From contig NZ_CP067100.1 of assembly GCF_016616235.1 (NCBI RefSeq), positions 2,229,001-2,293,000 of the forward strand: a stretch of 64,000 nt of DNA. The letters run 5' to 3'. The notes below the pieces were generated by a model. The model searched no databases and was not told the origin of the DNA. It saw only the letters and a program-made list of their open reading frames with translations. The translations under genes and the position numbers were made by a program. This DNA comes from Bradyrhizobium diazoefficiens. GTDB lineage: Bacteria; Pseudomonadota; Alphaproteobacteria; Rhizobiales; Xanthobacteraceae. Position 1 is the stretch's first letter; each line of letters begins with the position of its first letter. This document shows, one piece after another, positions 20,207 through 62,521 of this stretch.

Positions 20207-20305
20207 GTCATTCCGGGGTTCGCGAAGCGAGAACTACGGTGCGTGCTTCCGCACCGGAGAATCTCGAGGTTCCGGGTTCGATGCCTTGCATCGCCCCGGA
20301 ACGAC
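20207..20305. repeat. palindromic intergenic repeat, family A copy 2
   Basis: About 99 bp with ends GTCATTCCGGGG and CCCCGGAACGAC. The inner blocks AACTACGGTGCG and GAATCTCGAG are shared with the copy at 648-750. It lies in the divergent gap between the FAD oxidoreductase and the fused membrane protein, where it could overlap both promoters. Confidence 0.8.
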
Positions 20306-47953: not shown

Positions 47954-50596
47954 TCACGCCCGCTGCACAAAGCTGTCCACGACCTTCTTCTCGCCGGCCT
48001 TGTCGAAGGCGATGGTGAGCTTGTTGCCGTCGATCTTGGTGACGCGGCCGTAGCCGAATTTCTGGTGGAAGACGCGGTCTTCGAGCGAGAATTCGGACGT
48101 CGTGCCGGTGGATTTGGCGACCAGCTCGCCCTCGATCGTCATCGGCCCACGCCGGCGCGAGGAGAAGCTGCCGAAATCGGGGCCGGCCGATGAGGCGGAC
48201 GAGAACGTCGCGGCCTCTTCCTCGAAGCCGCCGTGGCTGCCGCCGCCATTGCGGCCGCCGCCGCGGTTGCGGTTGGCCTGGGCGCGCTGCCAGCCCGGCG
48301 TCGAATAGCTGGAGCCGAACGCTTCCATGTCGTCGAAGCGCGAGGCGCCGTAGCCGCCGGTGCCGCCCCAGGCCGAGCCACCCTTGGATTCCGTGATCTC
48401 GACGTTGGCCGCCGGCAATTCGTCGAGGAAGCGCGACGGGATCGTGGTCGACCAGGTGCCGTGGATGCGGCGGTTGGTGGCGAAATAGATCATGGCGCGG
48501 CGGCGGGCGCGGGTGAGGCCGACATGGCCGAGCCGGCGCTCTTCTTCGAGACCGGCGCGGCCCTGTTCGTCCAGCGTGCGCTGGCTCGGGAACAGGCCTT
48601 CCTCCCAGCCCGGCAGGAACACGTTGTCGAATTCGAGGCCCTTGGCCGAGTGCAGCGTCATCAGCGACACCGCGTCGTCCTCGGCGCCGCCCTCGCGGTC
48701 CATCACCAGCGAGATGTGCTCCAAAAACCCCTGCAGGTTCTCGAACTCCTCCATCGAGCGCACCAGCTCCTTGAGGTTCTCCAGCCGGCCCGCGGCGTCC
48801 GCCGAGCGGTCCTTCTGCCACATCTCGGTATAGCCGCTCTCGTCGAGCACGATCTGGGCGAGATCGGTATGGGAGGTGACCTCGCGCTGGGCGCGCCAGC
48901 GGTCGAACTGGGCGACGACGTCGCGCAAGGATCCGCGCGCCTTCGGCTTCAGCTCGTCGGTCTCGACCACGGCGCGCGCCGCCTCGAACAGCGGAATGCG
49001 GCGGTTGCGGGCGTGGTCGTGCAGCATCTGCACGGTGGCATCGCCGAGGCCGCGCTTGGGCACGTTGACGATGCGCTCGAAGGCGAGATCGTCGGCCGGC
49101 GAATTGATGACGCGCAGGTAAGCCAGCGCATCGCGGATCTCGGCGCGCTCATAGAAGCGCGGGCCGCCGATGACGCGATAGGGCAGGCCGAGCGTGACGA
49201 AACGGTCTTCGAACTCGCGCATCTGATAGGAGGCGCGCACGAGAATGGCGATCTCGTTCAGCTTCTCGCCCTGGCGCTGCAGCTGCTCGATCTCCTCGCC
49301 GATGCCGCGGGCTTCCTCTTCCGAATCCCAGGAGCCCGTGACCGTGACTTTCTCGCCGTCCTGGTCCTCGGTGCGCAGCGTCTTGCCGAGCCGGCCTTCA
49401 TTATGCGCGATCAGATGCGAGGCGGCGGCGAGGATGTGGCCGGTGGAGCGGTAGTTGCGCTCGAGCCGGATCACCTTGGCGCCGGGAAAATCGTGCTCGA
49501 AGCGCAGGATGTTGTCGACCTCGGCCCCGCGCCAGCCATAGATCGATTGGTCGTCGTCGCCGACGCAGCAGATGTTTTTGACGTGGGCTTTCTGCTCCCT
49601 CGCCCCGCTTGCGGGGTCGCGACGAGCTTCGCTCGCGCTGAGAGGGTCGGGGTGAGGGGGACTCTCCACGAGTTCGGTGCTCGGAGAGTCCCCCTCACCC
49701 GCCGCGCTCTGGCCCGCAATTGCGCTGCCGAGCGCGTCGGCCTCTCCCCGCAGGCGGGGAGAGGCGAAGGAAGGAGACGCCGGCGCCTGCGACAGCAGCC
49801 GCAGCCACAGATATTGCGCGACGTTGGTGTCCTGATATTCGTCGACCAGGATGAATTTGAAGCGCTGCTGGTACTGCCGCAAAATATCCGGGTGCTCGCG
49901 GAAGATGCGGATGTTCTCCAGCAGCAGATCGCCGAAATCGGCGGCGTTCAAAATCTTCAGCCGCTCCTGGTAGCTCGCATAGAGCTTGCCGCCCTTGCCG
50001 TTGGCGAAGACGGCGGCTTCACCTGATGGCACCTGCGACGGCGTCAGGCCACGGTTCTTCCAGCCGTCGATCAGGCCGGCCAGCATGCGCGCCGGCCAGC
50101 GCTTGTCGTCGATGTTCTCGGCCTGGAGCAACTGCTTCAGCAGCCGGACCTGGTCGTCAACATCGAGCACGGTGAAGTTCGACTTGAGCTGCGCCAGCTC
50201 GGCGTGGAAGCGCAGGATGCGGCCGCCGATGGAGTGGAAGGTGCCGAGCCACGGCATGCCTTCGACCGCGTGGCCGAGCATCTGGCCGAGCCGGTGCTTC
50301 ATCTCGCGCGCGGCCTTATTGGTGAAGGTCACCGACAGGATCTCGGCGGGACGGGCGCGGCCCTGGCTCAGGATATGGGCGATGCGCGTGGTCAGCACGC
50401 GCGTCTTGCCGGTGCCGGCGCCGGCCAGCACCAGCACCGGGCCGTCCAGCGTCTCCACCGCCTCGCGCTGCTCCGGATTGAGACCGGAGAGATATTTCGG
50501 GCCCACCGAGGCGCGCGCACGCGCGGCGATGCCGCCGGCGGCGGGCTGGTGGTCGGGAACGCTGGTGATCTTGCTCGGCTTGGTCATGCGAATCAT
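47954..50596 (-). CDS. uvrD: ATP-dependent DNA helicase UvrD/PcrA, with in-frame repeat insertion
   Basis: Superfamily 1A helicase for mismatch and excision repair, 880 residues. Motif I is LAGAGTGKTRVLT, motif II ILVDEYQDTN, motif III ICCVGDDDQSIYGWRG, and later motifs include LTRARRRAMIYFATN. Between motifs II and III the protein carries about 63 extra residues (ASPSFASPRLRGEADALG to DPASGAREQ, bases 49597-49785). Those bases are a palindromic repeat, and E. coli UvrD has only a few residues at that place. A Gly/Asn/Arg-rich linker precedes the C-terminal domain. Start 50596 is favoured by GGGG upstream; 50587 is possible. Confidence 0.93.
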   Translation of the reverse strand: MIRMTKPSKITSVPDHQPAAGGIAARARASVGPKYLSGLNPEQREAVETLDGPVLVLAGAGTGKTRVLTTRIAHILSQGRARPAEILSVTFTNKAAREMKHRLGQMLGHAVEGMPWLGTFHSIGGRILRFHAELAQLKSNFTVLDVDDQVRLLKQLLQAENIDDKRWPARMLAGLIDGWKNRGLTPSQVPSGEAAVFANGKGGKLYASYQERLKILNAADFGDLLLENIRIFREHPDILRQYQQRFKFILVDEYQDTNVAQYLWLRLLSQAPASPSFASPRLRGEADALGSAIAGQSAAGEGDSPSTELVESPPHPDPLSASEARRDPASGAREQKAHVKNICCVGDDDQSIYGWRGAEVDNILRFEHDFPGAKVIRLERNYRSTGHILAAASHLIAHNEGRLGKTLRTEDQDGEKVTVTGSWDSEEEARGIGEEIEQLQRQGEKLNEIAILVRASYQMREFEDRFVTLGLPYRVIGGPRFYERAEIRDALAYLRVINSPADDLAFERIVNVPKRGLGDATVQMLHDHARNRRIPLFEAARAVVETDELKPKARGSLRDVVAQFDRWRAQREVTSHTDLAQIVLDESGYTEMWQKDRSADAAGRLENLKELVRSMEEFENLQGFLEHISLVMDREGGAEDDAVSLMTLHSAKGLEFDNVFLPGWEEGLFPSQRTLDEQGRAGLEEERRLGHVGLTRARRRAMIYFATNRRIHGTWSTTIPSRFLDELPAANVEITESKGGSAWGGTGGYGASRFDDMEAFGSSYSTPGWQRAQANRNRGGGRNGGGSHGGFEEEAATFSSASSAGPDFGSFSSRRRGPMTIEGELVAKSTGTTSEFSLEDRVFHQKFGYGRVTKIDGNKLTIAFDKAGEKKVVDSFVQRA
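49597..49775. repeat. palindromic repeat element inside the uvrD coding sequence
   Basis: About 180 bp of nested inverted repeats: CCCCGC-TT-GCGGGG at the left, then arms GTGAGGGGGACTCTCC (49652-49667) and GGAGAGTCCCCCTCAC (49683-49698) with a 15-base loop, then CCTCTCCCCGC (49741-49751) and GCGGGGAGAGG (49754-49764). Its right end resembles the intergenic element split by the IS at 55228. Open in the uvrD frame throughout. Confidence 0.85.
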
Positions 50597-50834
50597 TTGG
50601 CCCCACGATGGCACCGCGGGGTGACGGGAGGGAGCCTTCTTAACAGGGATTGCTGCCTATATGGGGCGGCGGGGCGGGTTTTCCACGTACGCGGCAGGCC
50701 GATTTGTTCCCGGAAGCCGCGTTAATTCCGTCCGGCGTATTCCGGAACCTTCGTTTCCGCGTCGAGATTGTCTCGACAGGTGGCGCGGCCAGGCCGCGCT
50801 AGATGCAGACAGACATCAAGACGAGGGTTTGACC

Positions 50835-51016: not shown

Positions 51017-51121
51017 TCCTCATGATGAGGAGCGCGGAACGCGCGTCTCGAACCACGAAGGCCCGACTGTCGCCTGACATCCTTCGAGACGCCCGCTTCG
51101 CGAGCTCCTCAGGACGAGGGG
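51017..51121. repeat. palindromic intergenic repeat, family C copy 1
   Basis: About 105 bp from TCCTCATGATGAGGAGCGCG to CCTCAGGACGAGGGG, with GCGTCTCGAA and CCTTCGAGACGC as complementary inner blocks. It lies between the DUF1328 gene and the convergent thioesterase gene. A longer relative is at 62388-62521. Confidence 0.75.
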
Positions 51122-55106: not shown

Positions 55107-55227
55107 GGGAGGTGCGCTCCCTCCCCCGCGCGCGGGGGAGGGCTGGGGAGAGGGTGCTTCCGCGGTTGGACTCCCGAAGAGGAGAGAGCCCTCACCCGCG
55201 CCTTCGGCGCGACCTCTCCCGCAAGCG
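55107..55227. repeat. palindromic repeat, family D, left part (split by the IS)
   Basis: Starts CTCCCTCCCCCGCGCGCGG with its complement GGGGGAGGG, followed by GCGCCTTCGGCGC and CCTCTCCCGCAAGCG. The right part continues at 56430-56465. Without the IS and one copy of CGCAAGCG, the junction becomes a perfect hairpin CCTCTCCCGC-AA-GCGGGAGAGG. It is related to the element inside uvrD. Confidence 0.8.
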
Positions 55228-56429
55228 AGAGCTTTGCTTAATTGGATGTGCGGGGGTAGTTCCTGCTGCCGGGCTTTTTTTGCGCAGCATCTGACGGCGC
55301 ACGGCATGGAACGGTTGCGTTTTGGTGGCCGACGGATGGCTTCGGGCGACGACGGTCATGCTGCAGCTCCCACAGCAGACAGCACCGCCCATCGTTTGAG
55401 ATTCATGGCGAGGCAGATCAGGCGCAGATGCGTCTGGTTGCGCGCCAGGCCCAGATAGCGGGCGCGCGCCCAGCGGTAGCCGCCCTTGAGGCGGGCGAAG
55501 ACCTGCTCGACCGGCGCGCGCCGCTTTCCCACAGCGTCGTTGAAGCGCTTCTGCCGCTCGGTCAGCGGATGATGCTTGTTGGGGCGGAACATCAGCCGCG
55601 GCTTGATGCCTCGCGCACGAAGGCCGCTGCGGCGCTCGTGCTTGTCATAGGCCTGGTCGGCATACACCGCCTTCTCATCACCGCAGATCAACTCGTCGGC
55701 GGGCACCGTGTCGTTGACCGCAGCATCGGTCAGCTTGCTGCGGCGGATGATCGCCGAGCCCTGGTCGATGCCCACATGTGCCTTGTAGCCGAAGTATCGT
55801 TTGCCGCCCTTCTTGGTCCAGCGCGCGTCAGGATCGCGCTTGCTGTTGACCAGTTTGCTCGGCGCCAGGCCGTCCGGGCCGGGCGGTTGCGGATCCTCTG
55901 GCGGCTTCGGCGGCTTCACCGCCGCCGGAATCAGACTCGCGTCGATCAGCGTGCCCCGCCGCACCACCAGCCCATGCGCCTCAATCTGGCGCAAGATCTC
56001 ACTGAACAGCGTCTCGTCCAGGCCGGCCCGCTGCAAAGCCTCCCGGAAGCGCCAGATCGTTGCATGGTCGGGGGTCTCGTCGCCCAGCACAAAGCCGCAG
56101 AAATCGCGGAACGAGGCCCGATCATCAAGCGCCTCTTCAAGCTCCGGATCGGACAGCCCGTACCATTGCTGCAGCAGCAGCGCCTTGAACATCACCAGCC
56201 GTGGATAGGCCGGCGCGCCCCGCTCCGGTTCCGGCAGGCCGCCCAGCACGCGCTCCACTGCCTCCCAATCCACCAGTTCGCCAATCCGCCTCAGCACCGG
56301 GCTCCCTTTTCCTCGCCGCGACACCAGCGCGTCCGCGAAGCTCGGTTGTCCAACCTGACGATATGCCATCCCAGCCCCTTTCCCCTCAAGCCAGAGAGAA
56401 TCCCAGACTCGTGCTTTATGCAAAGCTCT
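55228..56429. mobile_element. IS5-family insertion sequence, 1202 bp
   Basis: The ends are AGAGCTTTGC (55228-55237) and its exact complement GCAAAGCTCT (56420-56429). The match extends to 13 of 14 bases (AGAGCTTTGC then TTAA or ATAA). The element is flanked by CGCAAGCG on both sides (55220-55227 and 56430-56437), which looks like an 8-bp target duplication. It contains one transposase gene. Eight bases is longer than the usual 2-4 bp of IS5 elements, so the exact family or duplication length is open. Confidence 0.85.
55356..56369 (-). CDS. IS5-family transposase
   Basis: A 337-residue DDE transposase. The N-terminal helical region includes GELVDWEAVERVLGGLPE and LLLQQWYGLSDPELEEAL, typical of IS5. 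The catalytic triad is likely the Asp in TLIDASLIPAAVK, the Asp in AVYADQAYDKHERR, and the Glu in RRAPVEQVFARLKGGYR, which carries the family Y-R-E-like spacing. The frame is open to 56726, but homology starts at the ATG at 56369, 60 bp inside the right end. The gene appears intact, with no frameshift or internal stop. Confidence 0.93.
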   Translation of the reverse strand: MAYRQVGQPSFADALVSRRGKGSPVLRRIGELVDWEAVERVLGGLPEPERGAPAYPRLVMFKALLLQQWYGLSDPELEEALDDRASFRDFCGFVLGDETPDHATIWRFREALQRAGLDETLFSEILRQIEAHGLVVRRGTLIDASLIPAAVKPPKPPEDPQPPGPDGLAPSKLVNSKRDPDARWTKKGGKRYFGYKAHVGIDQGSAIIRRSKLTDAAVNDTVPADELICGDEKAVYADQAYDKHERRSGLRARGIKPRLMFRPNKHHPLTERQKRFNDAVGKRRAPVEQVFARLKGGYRWARARYLGLARNQTHLRLICLAMNLKRWAVLSAVGAAA

Positions 56430-62387: not shown

Positions 62388-62521
62388 CCTCGTCCTTCGA
62401 GGCGACCGCATCGCGGTCTCCTCAGGATGAGGCTCAGCGGCACCTGTGCCTTTTGAAACTGCTGCCGCGCACTCCGTCCTCATCCCGAGGAGCCCGCGAA
62501 GCGGACGTGTCGAAGGATGGC
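62388..62521. repeat. palindromic intergenic repeat, family C copy 2
   Basis: About 134 bp from CCTCGTCCTTCGAGGCGACC to GTGTCGAAGGATGGC, with inner complementary parts TCCTCAGGATGAGGC and CCTCATCCCGAGGAGCC. It is longer than the copy at 51017-51121 and lies between the hydroxyacid dehydrogenase and MFS genes. Confidence 0.75.

Follow-up and report, generated by a model that had tools for sequence, protein, structure and literature searches.

In-frame palindromic repeats of several types occupy one loop of a PcrA/UvrD-type helicase in Bradyrhizobium and related bacteria

In Bradyrhizobium and its relatives, a loop between helicase motifs II and III of a PcrA/UvrD-type helicase is built from palindromic repeats. 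In the window, a stretch of 64,000 nucleotides from the B. diazoefficiens genome (a single contig of 7.67 Mb), the repeat belongs to a type named here F1 and would be translated as a disordered-looking segment between the two motifs. The same site holds repeats of different types in related genomes, their frames are open, their constraint is relaxed, their turnover is fast, and a second gene offers a parallel. The reading that we favor, with a probability of roughly two in three, is that of a permissive loop in which cassettes decay, are swapped between strains and are replaced, with open reading frames as the filter.

The helicase gene (47954..50614, minus strand, 886 codons) was identified with Pfam (UvrD-helicase, 9.7e-84; UvrD_C, 1.2e-68) and phmmer, and has what marks a PcrA/UvrD helicase: both UvrD helicase domains, N- and C-terminal, along with motifs II and III. 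It falls short of the NCBIfam equivalog cut-offs, the best being PcrA with 752.9 bits against 911.2 required. The DEYQDTN codons, which we take to be motif II, lie close upstream of the insert (49823..49843, minus strand), and the GDDDQSIYGWRGA codons, presumably motif III, lie close downstream (49523..49561, minus strand). The motif II pattern was also matched exactly at a second genomic place (G000:C1:3374012-3374032, minus strand). With its linkers, the insert comprises 70 codons between ...LRLLSQ and NICCVGDDDQ (49577..49786, minus strand). In phmmer alignments to the solved structures 3lfu and 2is1, residues up to 275 and from 348 of the window protein correspond to residues 237 and 243 of E. 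coli UvrD, leaving 72 residues where E. coli has 5. The sequence-only reading had placed about 63 extra residues at this short E. coli turn, in an uninterrupted uvrD frame; the extra residues are real and the frame is open without a stop. An AlphaFold model of the protein (mean pLDDT 50) shows residues 276-346 without secondary structure, and the composition of the inserts (P 15%, S 13% and A 14%, with W and Y at 0.1% and C at 0.0%) is what would be expected of a disordered loop. That the protein retains this peptide, in a surface-exposed and harmless loop, is our inference.

The F1 repeat proper covers approximately 49598..49764, with outer arms at 49598-49616 and 49746-49764 (19 bp, 89% matched) that enclose most of the remaining repeat. 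Hairpin B (49650..49700) has perfect 18-bp arms at 49650-49667 and 49683-49700 around a 15-nt loop, and hairpin A (49740..49765) has perfect 12-bp arms at 49740-49751 and 49754-49765. The hairpins had been described from the letters with perfect arms of 16 and 11 bp; they exist, but their perfect arms are actually 18 and 12 bp. The insert folds far better than chance, like REP-like elements, both as RNA (z -6.3) and as DNA (z -5.8), and in neither test did any of 200 shuffles do as well. An Rfam search of 49300-50100 gave 10 matches, none of which reached the gathering score, and a known structured RNA family was rejected as the identity of the insert. In stem A, 96% of the cells are paired, but this covariation is weak evidence because the main double change (21 G-C, 62 A-T) may reflect two old subfamilies.

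As in REP-like elements, many matches to the insert were found in the genome: at least 58 rows at E<=1e-3, uvrD itself included, which come from 40 scored candidates; some rows overlap, so that rows are not equal to copies. The proposal of a palindromic interspersed repeat lying in frame within uvrD was right, and the suggested genome search located the element elsewhere. An element of the same type had also been proposed at 55107/56430; alignment does not bear this out (score 25, with a shuffle maximum of 34), although the insertion sequence there is flanked by arms of the same CTCTCCCGC kind of hairpin. Other repeats of the window are F4-type palindromes at 51078-51120, roughly 460 bases outside uvrD on its 5' side, and at 62475-62520, and half of an F2-type repeat at 20263-20305.

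The window also encodes a DDE transposase (55356-56369, minus strand; Pfam DDE_Tnp_1 with DUF772), which has 8 genome copies (L472-L480). In 8/8 copies, the insertion sequence, whose ends read GAGAGCTTTGC...GCAAAGCTCTC, occupies the loop of a CCCGCNNGC hairpin repeat, an arrangement similar to the use of REPs as insertion-sequence targets described in PMC1525189, a paper whose main text does not include Bradyrhizobium. The loop of hairpin A (49740-49765) resembles the hairpin loop that this resident element occupies elsewhere, so uvrD could be a target of it.

The closest relative of the insert within its own genome (83% over 134 bases) lies inside a fused ABC ATPase gene. In the same comparison of copies, 23 of the 86 same-type uvrD inserts from other species align better to the window insert than any of 29 own-genome copies, so the window copy was probably not derived straight from its own genome, and a freshly inserted copy of that origin is unsupported.

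To describe the loop across taxa, uvrD was matched in 195/195 genomes of the genus, 197/198 of the family (47 genera) and 150/150 of the order. Spans between motifs II and III were taken from 283 loci, which, after removal of 43 duplicates, represent 240 distinct genes. Both motifs were required in one frame, a procedure that misses frameshifted genes; L284, with a run of N and a broken frame, was the only such case seen, and neither it nor L277, whose stretch stops short of the insert, gave a span. A recognisable repeat was present in 195 of the 240 genes, other linkers of 14-82 residues in 19, and short turns of 3-10 residues in 26. The 214 non-short inserts range from 14 to 103 residues (median 56.5).

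In the first 110 genus genomes, the better-matching of the 195 searched, every insert has at least 45 residues, and none of the 43 rows from named records is short. The case had been regarded as unusual, which it is, but with long inserts in all 110 genus genomes it is not a lone, recent hit. Within the family (code f1; 172 rows from 32 genera), 12 rows are of the "other" class and the six short rows belong to genera g13, g14, g23, g35 and g41. Long inserts are found in 27 of the 32 family genera read (47 searched), 24 of which have at least one recognised repeat, and single genera can hold several types, as g28 does with F1, F3 and F4. Outside this family, the order contributes 25 rows, 20 of them short; long inserts there are restricted to f22 (three rows, one genus) and f15 (one, of 31 residues), with one of 14 residues in f40. 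Elsewhere in the Alphaproteobacteria, sampled as 60 of the 177 genomes that matched motif II (193 searched; 53 family codes), a three-residue turn was found in 58/60 genes (57 by script and L397 by eye) and five or six residues in the other two, indicating that the turn is nearly fixed elsewhere and that the enlarged loop is confined to few lineages. Comparison across genomes, the kind of check that the sequence-only reading had called for, showed variation in length, sequence and repeat type, and a uniform loop conserved throughout the Rhizobiales is rejected.

On a protein tree built from 89 flanks, the loop must switch 7 times between the short and the long state; well-supported branches force only 2 of these switches. 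In this tree, g14, g23 and g41 branch together, and g13 and g35 are placed within long-loop groups on weak branches. A peptide like GYDLADTF or GVSLEDTW recurs in inserts L162, L255, L263, L266 and L276, from several genera; it may belong to another repeat or represent a conserved segment of the loop that is older.

Six repeat types were distinguished by loose peptide patterns made for this analysis, so that some labels may be wrong: F1 was assigned to 87 genes, F2 to 64, F3 to 21, F4 to 11, F5 to 4, F6 to 2, and two types to 6. At least two of the last, L158 and L209, are probably single-type inserts with a double pattern match. Several "other" inserts (e.g. L239, L275 and L300) resemble repeat remnants by eye. 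Sampled alignments between types scored near shuffles for most combinations, and within-type medians were 87-165, with only 35 for F5. Short stretches are common to F2, F3 and F6, with median scores of 24.5-32 where shuffles give 18-19, and scores above shuffles were also obtained for F4 with F6 (29) and F1 with F5 (26). Because of these short shared stretches and the looseness of F5, we count at least three groups and not six, the alignments suggesting F1/F5, F2/F3/F6 and F4 as unrelated sets. In other species, most F2 and F3 inserts start with CGTCATT and finish with AATGACG or GATGACG, and by eye they fit the CGTC REPs, defined in PMC3733652 by CGTC at one end, a stem of 8-9 bp with AT pairs first and a loop of 4-5 nt. 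F1, with stems of 12 and 18 bp, does not fit that description by eye.

Types change between close relatives. Of 174 near pairs carrying F1-F3 (flank divergence of 5% or less), 96 combine two different types, the closest of them being 2.35% apart, and two g28 genomes, L153 and L156, hold F1 and F4 respectively although their flanking protein sequences are identical. Changes were counted on a tree of 220 uvrD flanks with the insert removed (20 of the 240 were dropped for short flanks), a quick tree in which 87 of 217 inner branches are below 80. With each label set against the rest, F1, F2, F3 and F4 require 57, 40, 19 and 10 changes, compared with 69.6, 56.5, 19.3 and 10.8 for shuffled labels, so the fit to the tree is weak for F1 and F2 and undetectable for F3 and F4. 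Branches with SH-aLRT of at least 95 force 22, 17, 10 and 6 of these changes. Same-type neighbours, too, differ in their sub-units. In a clade sharing the left linker APSRPG.PLSAIIPG, the right side is F1 in some members and F2 in others, indicating that the right part of the cassette changes while the left linker persists. Between genera, nearly identical F3 cores are joined to differing linkers, which suggests that F3 entered the loop separately in different genera.

Several observations bear on the proposal that each type entered once or a few times, and that the Bradyrhizobium patchwork results from homologous recombination of uvrD alleles between species and not from new insertions. The F1, F2 and F3 inserts of Bradyrhizobium have linkers common to their own type, the window insert is nearer to the uvrD inserts of other species than to its own genome's copies, and the full F3 cassette was matched only in uvrD in 11/11 F3-carrying genomes (among the best 27 candidates per genome). 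Among 86 genes, the agreement in type between nearest neighbours peaks in the 150 bp that directly follow the insert, at 0.70, where shuffling gives 0.49 on average. On the other hand, discordant near pairs show little extra divergence beside the insert (upstream, over the first 100 bp, 5.6% against 4.5%; downstream, 2.6% against 2.2%), and the different types found between genera are left unexplained. Partial F3 matches had a median of at least 27 in F3-carrying genomes, compared with 10 and 10 (p 0.008), the groups being made of related species. We consider the odds of this proposal to be about even. It is compatible with the permissive loop, of which it is a component: the agreement over 150 bp, the F3 cassette restricted to uvrD and the closer foreign inserts indicate that part of the turnover is likely to be exchange between strains.

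All 283 uvrD spans are open and a multiple of three in length. The uvrD frame is open in 183/183 F1-F4 inserts, above the most open other frame, which is open in 71/87 F1, 46/64 F2, 13/21 F3 and 9/11 F4 inserts. Among the F1 copies of the window genome, 22 of the 29 examined align over at least 90 bases, and of these, 20 have frame-shifting gaps and 13 have stops in the homologous frame; the clean copies are one within the ABC ATPase gene and one short alignment. These data bear on whether the insert is removed or skipped, by splicing or translational bypass, leaving a normal protein. The strong hairpins predicted in the mRNA speak for such a process, but a skipped segment would be free to lose its frame, contrary to the open frames in every span, and we regard skipping as very improbable.

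Constraint on the translated inserts is relaxed, with pN/pS of 0.66 for F1 (39 disjoint pairs), 0.57 for F2 (30), 0.49 for F3 (8) and 0.57 for F4, the last from one pair; the flanks, with similar pS, have values of 0.046-0.067 (0.046-0.062 for F1-F3). Hairpin excess, defined as a fold better than z -2 compared with peptide-preserving synonymous resampling, was found in 70/87 F1, 28/64 F2, 6/21 F3 and 8/11 F4 inserts, and in 1/212 control stretches. It was absent from all of the "other" inserts that could be folded (0/18), indicating that the hairpin is dispensable for keeping the linker, which can outlive it. Silent-site diversity in F1 was 0.113 and 0.04 in the stems (six and four sites), 0.209 in the remainder of the insert and 0.234 in the flanks; in F3, from few sites, it was 0.095 in the core, 0.194 in the linkers and 0.202 in the flanks. 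Over all sites, the F3 linkers are far more diverse (0.394) than the upstream flank (0.116) or the core (0.086). The silent sites of repeat cores thus vary less than those of the helicase, which means that the cores are subject to more than decay. Any of four causes could be responsible: young age, conversion, template switching and DNA-level selection.

These lower silent-site values, and the insert pN/pS below 1, count against the permissive loop. They would be accounted for if the insert were a selected module, that is, if the cell needed a long disordered segment or an mRNA or DNA hairpin at this position, any type serving and empty alleles being disfavoured. The uniformly long inserts of the window genus (115 rows of at least 45 residues) and of the named records (43 of at least 38) agree with this. 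However, sequences differ and lengths range from 22 to 103 residues within the family, the 18 "other" inserts lack the hairpin excess, three residues suffice in nearly all other Alphaproteobacteria sampled, and the short genera g13 and g35, on their weak branches, may be reversions to the short state. Such a module seems unlikely to us. A related speculation, which we rate a shade higher though still doubtful, is that the helicase core has a cartridge slot, where selection maintains some disordered segment whatever its sequence; palindromic repeats would be traded as interchangeable protein parts, with arms re-perfected by template switching or conversion.

The second host gene encodes the fused ABC ATPase mentioned above (G000:C1:7465498-7467495; L442, L002:634-2631), in which an in-frame F1 copy separates the second ABC domain from the oligo_HPY region. 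The ABC linker could be read at 25 of 30 loci, its own included, and its contents, sorted by eye, were F1 in 7, another repeat in 11 (peptide SVMAGLDPAIH...VKPGGDE), a plain linker in 5 and a remnant in 2, a turnover that matches what a permissive linker predicts. Further host genes were sought at 30 F1 loci (L001-L030; the frame had to extend 30 residues or more on either side of the repeat) and 66 F2/F3/F4 loci (L316-L381, which partly overlap; here the frame had to reach 120 residues, with 40 on either side). The frame spans the repeat at 16/30 and 29/66 of these loci, respectively, and 30 such frames were examined with Pfam. The idea of repeats inside many genes of the window genome was rejected, since in this limited test, which is blind to genes without Pfam domains, no gene split by an F1-F4 copy had Pfam domains on both sides except uvrD and the ABC ATPase. 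In NUDIX, methyltransferase and GST frames, the repeat sits ahead of the first domain and may be 5' non-coding.

The place within uvrD is identical in all rows, as it would be if mobile repeats recognised a DNA sequence at this point of the gene, and the insertion habits of such repeats are little known. However, the linkers adjoining the repeat differ between lineages, genes outside the family with the same conserved protein flanks remain empty, and the ABC linker is a second host without an evident shared sequence by eye. A site-specific target therefore appears improbable.

Under the permissive-loop reading, in-frame insertion, either a single early event or a few events, would have opened the three-residue turn, and from then on the enlarged loop would have been nearly neutral ground. 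Cassettes of six sequence types would have entered it at various times and then decayed, shortened or been exchanged between strains, such exchange being a main route of turnover, while purifying selection on the remaining helicase would have weeded out frame-breaking outcomes. In this reading, the way in which cassettes enter, the number of loop openings and the share of exchange relative to fresh insertion are suppositions.

Palindromic elements of Rickettsia are tolerated in frame in protein genes, one family hitting many of them; they are the subject of Ogata et al. (2000 and 2002) and of Claverie and Ogata (2003), works cited in PMC6649704 and PMC3733652. The uvrD insert is likewise an open in-frame palindromic insertion in a conserved gene. 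Unlike the Rickettsia elements, several types share one site in free-living bacteria, and two host genes appeared in our limited search of the window genome. The nematomorph mitochondrial palindromes, as presented in PMC6649704, are also long coding inverted repeats with arms apparently kept matched, but they are scattered over mitochondrial genes and are not dispersed repeats at one site.

The nearest precedent is PMC3733652 (2013), which reports intragenic GTAG/CGTC REPs, short palindromic repeats in frame inside repair genes, with the UvrD/REP helicase among those named, and two Xanthomonas recB genes with different REPs at about the same site. The UvrD cases of that paper may include Bradyrhizobium. 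In-frame REPs in repair genes, UvrD included, were thus already known; the cases compared here are from single species, with other genes of the category hit at different sites. Notable here are several types at one site with natural controls: 24 genera, six types and turnover between close species, together with open-frame, pN/pS and outgroup tests that go beyond those cases. Our literature search, mostly outside subscription journals, found nothing on repeat exchange at one uvrD site.

For annotators, the finding is a warning that this UvrD segment is repeat-derived, and the loop is a hypervariable marker within a conserved gene. It also amounts to a natural replicate experiment, in which six types have come to fill the same helicase loop, whether inserted or exchanged, across many related species, while intact outgroups and a second gene serve for comparison. 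Whether coding REPs in repair genes are neutral or useful was a question raised in 2013 in PMC3733652, and their status as neutral passengers or useful parts becomes directly testable. In Bradyrhizobium and its relatives, one UvrD loop is built from a hairpin repeat of a kind normally scattered between genes, a case that shows how such repeat DNA can become part of an important protein.
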